Shown piece after piece: positions 57,600-58,655 of a stretch of 64,000 nt of DNA (position 1 is the first letter of the stretch; every line of letters starts with the position of its first letter). The stretch is from assembly GCF_029223285.1 (NCBI RefSeq), contig NZ_JARHUJ010000006.1, forward strand, positions 310,001-374,000, written 5' to 3'. The DNA comes from Paraflavitalea sp. CAU 1676 (GTDB lineage: Bacteria > Bacteroidota > Bacteroidia > Chitinophagales > Chitinophagaceae). A program made the translations under genes and the position numbers. The notes under the pieces are model-generated. The model was not told the DNA's origin, made no database searches, and worked only from the letters and a program-made list of their open reading frames with translations.

Positions 57600-58655
57600 T
57601 TAGTTCTTTGCCCGCAGGTATTGCGAAGGCCAGTCGATTTCCACACCCAACTCCTTCGCTGCGTGGAGCGGAAAATATGGATCTCGTAAGGATTGGCGTG
57701 CTATGATAACAAGATCGGCCTGCTCGGCGCCAATTATGTCTTCGGCCTGTTGTGCCGTTGTGATCATGCCCACTGCGCCGGTCGGTATACGGGCCTCTCT
57801 TCTTAGTTTTTCTGCGAAGCGTACCTGGTAACCGGGCGCTGTTGGTATGGTAATACCGGGTACAATGCCACCTGTTGAGCAATCGATCAGGTCAACTCCC
57901 CGCTCCTTCAATATCCCCGCCAATACAACTGAATCCAACTCATTCCACCCTCCATCGGCCCAATCGGTAGCAGATATGCGTACGAGTAAGGGCAATTGAG
58001 GCGGCCAAACTTCTTTCACAGTCTCCACCACTTCAAGTAGAAAACGAATCCGGTTCTCGAAACTTCCACCATATCGGTCGGTTCTTTGATTGGCTAACGG
58101 GGACAGGAACTCATGGATAAGATATCCATGGGCTGCGTGTAACTCCAAAACCTGGTAGCCAGCCTCCGCAGCCCGTGCCGCGGCAACCTTGAAATCACGG
58201 ATCACTTTGTTGATTCCGTCGAAGTCCAGGGCAAGCGGCACTGGGTCGGTTGGTCGAAAGGGTATGGCAGATGGTGCCACTGTTTGCCATCCGCCCGCTT
58301 CGGGAGAGATCTGTTGGCCACCCTTCCACGGACTTTGCGAGCTCGCCTTTCTCCCCGCATGCGCAAGCTGTATCCCCGGCACAGCGCCCTGCTCCCGGAT
58401 GAAAGCAGTGATCGATCGTAACTTTTCAAGATGTTCCTGCTTCCAGATCGTCGGGACTGATCCGTCCTTCGGGCGATATGGCAGATGCCTCCTGGATGAT
58501 GAGGCCGGCCCCACCAACTGCCCGGCGCCCAAGTGCACCAGGTGCCAATCGGTAGCAAAACCGTCAACAGAAGAGTATTGGCACATCGGCGATATCACTA
58601 TCCTGTTGCGAAAAGTGATGCTCTTTAATGTGAAGGGTGAAAAAAGTGCTGCCAT
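57600..58655 (-). pseudogene. Old Yellow Enzyme-like NADH:flavin oxidoreductase (YqjM type) with two compensating frameshifts
   Basis: The product has 351 residues from the ATG at 58655; the -7 element at 58674-58681 excludes the longer frame. FMN/substrate motifs SPMCQYSS, QLAHAGRKAS, HAAHGYLIHEFLSPL (catalytic His pair), RISATDWADGGW and IARQSLRDPYF are present. Between the conserved residues HLVHLG and [10 protein letters not shown], however, the protein reads [15 protein letters not shown], unrelated to the family. The alternative frame in exactly this stretch encodes [17 protein letters not shown], the expected sequence. The two shifts cancel, and about 26 residues, including the FMN-contact Ala, are replaced. 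The enzyme is probably inactive or misassembled; a sequencing artefact is possible, but the cancelling shifts are unusual. It would otherwise reduce activated alkenes using NAD(P)H. Confidence 0.75.

Follow-up and report, generated by a model that had tools for sequence, protein, structure and literature searches.

Is the NADPH dehydrogenase-like gene in this window (the whole stretch of 64,000 nucleotides that we analysed) an ordinary Old Yellow Enzyme (OYE), or has part of its flavin site been replaced by two frameshifts that cancel each other, as a preliminary description proposed? And if there are two frameshifts, did they arise in the cell or in the assembly? The relevant features are:

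57600..58655, minus strand: YqjM/NamA-class OYE gene (NADPH dehydrogenase-like), 351 amino acids, open throughout; matched by PF00724, by NF010047 (below its cut-off), and by the orthologue in genus-mate G003
58521..58530, minus strand: first shift, in GGGCGCCGGG, where relatives have one more base; a 1-nt gap against G003, G001 (also a genus-mate), and L033
58444..58521, minus strand: displaced segment, AVGG...PDDL in the ancestral frame (26 codons) and now read in another frame; from frame comparison, relatives, and codon-position counts
58440..58449, minus strand: second shift, where relatives have eight more bases; it restores the frame before IWKQEH; an 8-nt gap against the three relatives, and 35 versus 32 amino acids

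Two cancelling deletions in a YqjM-class gene

The gene runs on the minus strand from an ATG at 58655 to a stop codon that ends at 57600; the open frame as called by the ORF program has an earlier start, upstream at 58808. The protein matches Oxidored_FMN (PF00724) with 222.6 bits over profile positions 2-339 of 342, and this is the only PF00724 match in the genome (8.84 Mb in 23 contigs). The best NCBIfam model is NADPH dehydrogenase NamA (NF010047), at 371.8 bits, which does not reach the equivalog cut-off of 431. The protein is 72% identical to the orthologue from G003, and the related solved structures include 7o0t (the best match), 3hf3, and YqjM itself (1z41, E = 1.6e-89). The active-site residues of YqjM are given as Cys26, Tyr28, His164, His167, and Arg336 (PMC4002455). 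In the numbering of the window protein, Cys25, Tyr27, His173, His176, and Arg348 are invariant in an alignment of 34 sequences that includes it, and the Cys and the Tyr are also present in all 101 of the relatives that we extracted from among the matches listed. The two His columns were equated with His164 and His167 on the 34-sequence alignment only; the motif is missing from the reference used in the 101-relative comparison. Arg348 was equated with Arg336 according to where the alignment with 1z41 ends. Judging from its sequence, the gene is a member of the YqjM/NamA class by descent, and it is doubtful that it works as one.

Two other ORFs lie nearby. Upstream of the OYE gene, 58747-59532 (minus strand) has a lipoprotein-like start (by eye), a match to RHS repeats that is just above the cut-off, and a match to DUF4595 that is below it. 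On the plus strand, 59993-62608 is a large ORF of 871 amino acids; Gly, Arg, Asn, and Ser are very abundant in its final third.

The relatives came from a collection with one genome per species. The loci considered were the best matches (up to 30) and the best 80 of 226; of 109 non-self loci, 101 passed a tblastn threshold of E ≤ 1e-60, and eight distant or partial loci (L024-L031) were dropped. Two of the 101 duplicate others, leaving 99 distinct sequences, and none has an internal stop.

Between HLG and IWKQEH, the open frame encodes residues unlike those of the relatives, while the adjacent frame (58524 down to 58444) encodes a family-like sequence. Of 27 positions compared with the family consensus, 3 agree in the open frame and 24 in the adjacent frame; in the relatives, 18-27 agree. 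When we shuffled the bases of the displaced DNA 20,000 times, there were never more than 8 consensus matches in 26 positions, versus 23 observed, so the likeness of the adjacent frame to the family is not due to chance. The interval has 35 amino acids in 101 of 101 relatives from among the matches listed and 32 in the window protein, and a gap of three residues is visible against 7o0t, 8uaj, and 3hf3 in the three printed structure alignments. At the DNA level, a MAFFT alignment with G003, G001, and L033 contains one 1-nt gap and one 8-nt gap. The indels sum to a multiple of three and the old frame is readable between the two sites, as expected for a compensatory pair. Protein and DNA alignments thus agree on the two deletions (1 and 8 bases) that had been proposed, and the frames, the coordinates, and the shortening by three residues are as originally described.

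At the first shift, all three of the DNA-aligned relatives have a Ser codon at the run of C. Near the second site, the present sequence retains one copy of ATCTGG, and the direct repeat is a reconstruction. Overlapping this site are two short imperfect repeats: a direct pair of 13 nt, 48 apart, and an inverted pair of 9 nt, 28 apart. The loss would require a spacing of 8 bases, which is found in neither. Slippage between repeats is plausible, as is the proposed identity of the base lost at the first shift. A 25-base pattern from the OYE gene had no match in the viral collection.

Age of the deletions and expected effect on the protein

The displaced DNA has kept evolving under the old frame until now. 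Over the 26 codons, the differences from G003 at the first, second, and third positions of the old frame number 2/1/16 (3 non-synonymous), and those from G001 number 2/0/14 (2 non-synonymous). Three more distant relatives have the same pattern, less sharply (3/2/17, 8/3/18, and 7/2/18). Because the differences are mostly at third positions of the old frame, that frame has screened nearly every substitution since this genome and its genus-mates diverged. For comparison, over the rest of the gene, 72% of synonymous sites differ from G003 and 74% from G001.

We also asked which conserved positions (those shared by at least 97% of the 99 distinct relatives) are changed in the window protein: 10 of 11 inside the segment and 0 of 66 outside it. 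When each relative was left out in turn, it had lost 0-2 conserved positions inside the segment and 0-8 outside. With no conserved position changed outside the displaced segment, we rejected the idea that this is an old pseudogene. On these comparisons, the deletion pair is very young, and among the genomes examined this one is alone in having it. In a freely drifting gene, we would expect two indels within about 85 bases to be accompanied by substitutions elsewhere. The gene has not drifted, and we infer that the two deletions came at the same time or almost so.

A conserved variant was rejected as well. Homologues that carry the shifted sequence had been named beforehand as the observation that would overturn the frameshift claim, and the segment is in 0 of 101 relatives among the matches listed: 64 of these fit a strict motif, and each of the remaining 37 has some variant of the normal sequence.

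The replaced segment bears on cofactor binding. Ala60 is reported as one of the FMN contacts of YqjM (PMC4002455). We read the Ala of the QEATA motif as Ala60, from its position in the motif. All 101 relatives extracted from among the matches listed have this Ala, and it is aligned to a His in the window protein, so the loss of an Ala60 equivalent, which had been part of the original claim, is borne out if the motif is read in this way. On that reading, the window protein lacks the FMN-contacting strand beta-2 with its Ala60 equivalent. In AlphaFold models, the blocks covering residues 51-70 have pLDDT of 32 and 35 in the window protein and 91 and 87 in the intact orthologue from the genus-mate (overall means of 79.0 and 87.1). 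The two models used one set of 34 sequences, in alignments that differ in their first row. The low pLDDT in the new segment is partly expected, as no aligned homologue supports it, and residues 25-45 are poor in both models and hence uninformative. With strand beta-2 and the Ala60-equivalent contact gone, we predict that the protein, if made as given, should not hold FMN normally, whether the change comes from the cell or from the assembly.

Assembly error or recent mutation

We slightly prefer an error, to which we give about an even chance: a single local fault in the consensus or assembly would have produced both of the linked deletions (1 and 8 bases, about 80 bases apart), and the actual cell would have an intact and ordinary YqjM-class OYE gene. 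We infer that the source is the assembly instead of the cell. An error is favoured by the presence of the pair in one genome only, by the clustering of the two sites, by the lack of decay elsewhere in the gene, and by one of the indels being long. A real event is favoured by the low background of frameshifts, by the restored frame, and by the 8-base size. A loss of eight bases is unusual as a read error. The site is also away from the contig ends (at 368 kb of the 631-kb contig C20), which counts against an error. At most about half of random pairs of frame-breaking indels would cancel, and of 2,602 out-of-frame stretches of 28 codons that we sampled from the long ORFs of the window, 723 (28%) were open, so we estimate that about one in seven error pairs, or fewer, would be this tidy.

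To put numbers on the background, we scanned 600 kb of the contig for frameshifts, in windows, which covered 418 genes against G001 and 412 against G003. (A plain tblastn scan missed the OYE pair, where it gave a single match, and its results were dominated by antisense and upstream matches.) With this genome as the target, the windowed scans gave 33 event rows (15, 4, 4, and 10), of which 16 passed a filter for rows that reach the aligned part: 2 for the OYE gene, 8 for a gene at 133.75 kb, 1 for a degenerate gene at 81.7 kb, and 5 others at the N-terminal edge of a match. We took these five for sequence upstream of the true starts and did not check them individually; one, near 231.8 kb, has other-frame similarity, with stops, that extends over some 200 residues upstream of the match. 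Thus, besides the OYE pair, we recognized in the 600 kb one clear frameshift, at about 133.75 kb and against both references, plus the degenerate gene. A 400-kb scan of G003, whose genome is a single contig, found one clear single frameshift against both references. A scan of G001 found no clear frameshift and one N-terminal-edge event, near 545.4 kb of its contig C1, with both references. A generally error-ridden assembly has no support over 600 kb of this one contig.

At about 133740-133760 of C20 (L178, outside the window), a gene that is conserved in both genus-mates shifts frame at a run of 10 A, which is 9 A in G003, so that the final 230 or so codons lie in a different frame. Real slippage, recoding, and error are all candidate explanations for this shift. 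At about 81450-81960 of C20 (L176), the degenerate gene has several frame changes relative to a 164-amino-acid open frame in G003, at 48% identity; this was seen with one reference. In G003, at about 5841000-5841150 of C1 (L154), a gene whose product has a CxxCH motif changes frame close to five consecutive C and is in a single frame in our genome and in G001.

A genuine and very recent mutation in the strain, leaving a full-length but flavin-site-defective and probably inactive OYE, is an alternative whose chance we would put a little below even. One deletion may have broken the frame and the other restored it, possibly by replication slippage, or both may have come from a single event. The scarcity of other frameshifts on the contig and a restored frame that meets no stop speak for it, and the 8-base loss would fit slippage between the short repeats as reconstructed. 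Also, the gene looks dispensable. Four of the five genomes of the genus, including this one, have matches to PF00724 and the fifth (G004) has none, and with the window protein as the query there was a match in 33 of 59 genomes of the genus, family, and order, so loss of OYE activity seems to be tolerated. However, without drift elsewhere in the gene there was little time for two independent hits, and repairing the frame of an enzyme without its flavin site brings no evident benefit. Polarity gives no obvious reason for repair either, because the downstream gene (56018-57514) is convergent to the OYE gene; the next long ORF on the minus strand begins at 56052, beyond this neighbour. And a mutation, too, has to be reconciled with its being found in one genome only.

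It is improbable that frame-cancelling deletions very recently replaced the flavin-contact strand of the only OYE in this genome and left a stable protein with a changed or lost cofactor. Nor does the evidence support an altered enzyme whose new segment is kept by selection and confers a different behaviour towards cofactor or substrate, which we consider very unlikely: the frame is open and full-length and the active-site residues outside the segment are retained, but the segment is missing from all 101 relatives extracted, its DNA was constrained in the old frame, and its modelled confidence is far below that of the orthologue. Finally, slippage by the ribosome or the polymerase, programmed or adventitious, might return both sites to the normal frame, and slippage over short repeats in the form of homonucleotide runs of 3-8 bases is described as able to bypass frameshifts (PMC3812077); but two separate shifts would be required, neither site has a long homopolymer or (in our reading) a classical slippery heptamer, and with bases missing at the second site the product would lack residues even then, so recoding is the least probable of these explanations, with hardly any chance of being correct.

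Comparison with known enzymes, errors, and compensatory frameshifts

Relative to the YqjM/NamA class, the window protein has a full-length match and retains the Cys, the Tyr, the two His, and the C-terminal Arg, but about 26 residues over strand beta-2 and the Ala60 equivalent are replaced, and it is three residues shorter. If the preferred explanation, an error, is correct, then this is a consensus fault that is hard to spot, as the ORF stays open and the completeness score of the genome is still 99.97%. Like the frameshift errors of draft genomes, the pair is in one assembly only, is clustered, and lies in a gene that is otherwise undecayed; unlike them, it is not at a long homopolymer, its frame is restored, and the contig has few other frameshifts. 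If the deletions are real, then they are a clean natural pair of frame-restoring deletions in a bacterium, caught near birth, and a warning that an ORF may be open, full-length, and correctly named and yet specify a dead enzyme.

Compensatory pairs of frameshifts have been described in RNA viruses (PMC8127213) and in vertebrates and insects (Biba et al. 2022, PMC8935012). Of the three papers listed for compensatory frameshifts in bacterial genomes and pseudogenes, none is on bacterial OYEs by title, and we do not claim that bacterial cases are unreported. The pair in the window is a new instance of this described kind; should the reads reveal an error, it would not be a real feature. Biba et al. 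report 624 candidate genes; in 27 of them several species share the pair, and 6 remained after all of the filters. They limited the indels to 1-2 bases, reasoning that artefacts are less likely among shorter ones. As in their pairs, two nearby indels cancel and a short segment is replaced (the distances in their table 2 are 7 to 99 nt). Their indels are of 1-2 nt and 5 of the 6 high-confidence cases are in more than one species, whereas our pair includes an 8-nt deletion and is in a single genome.
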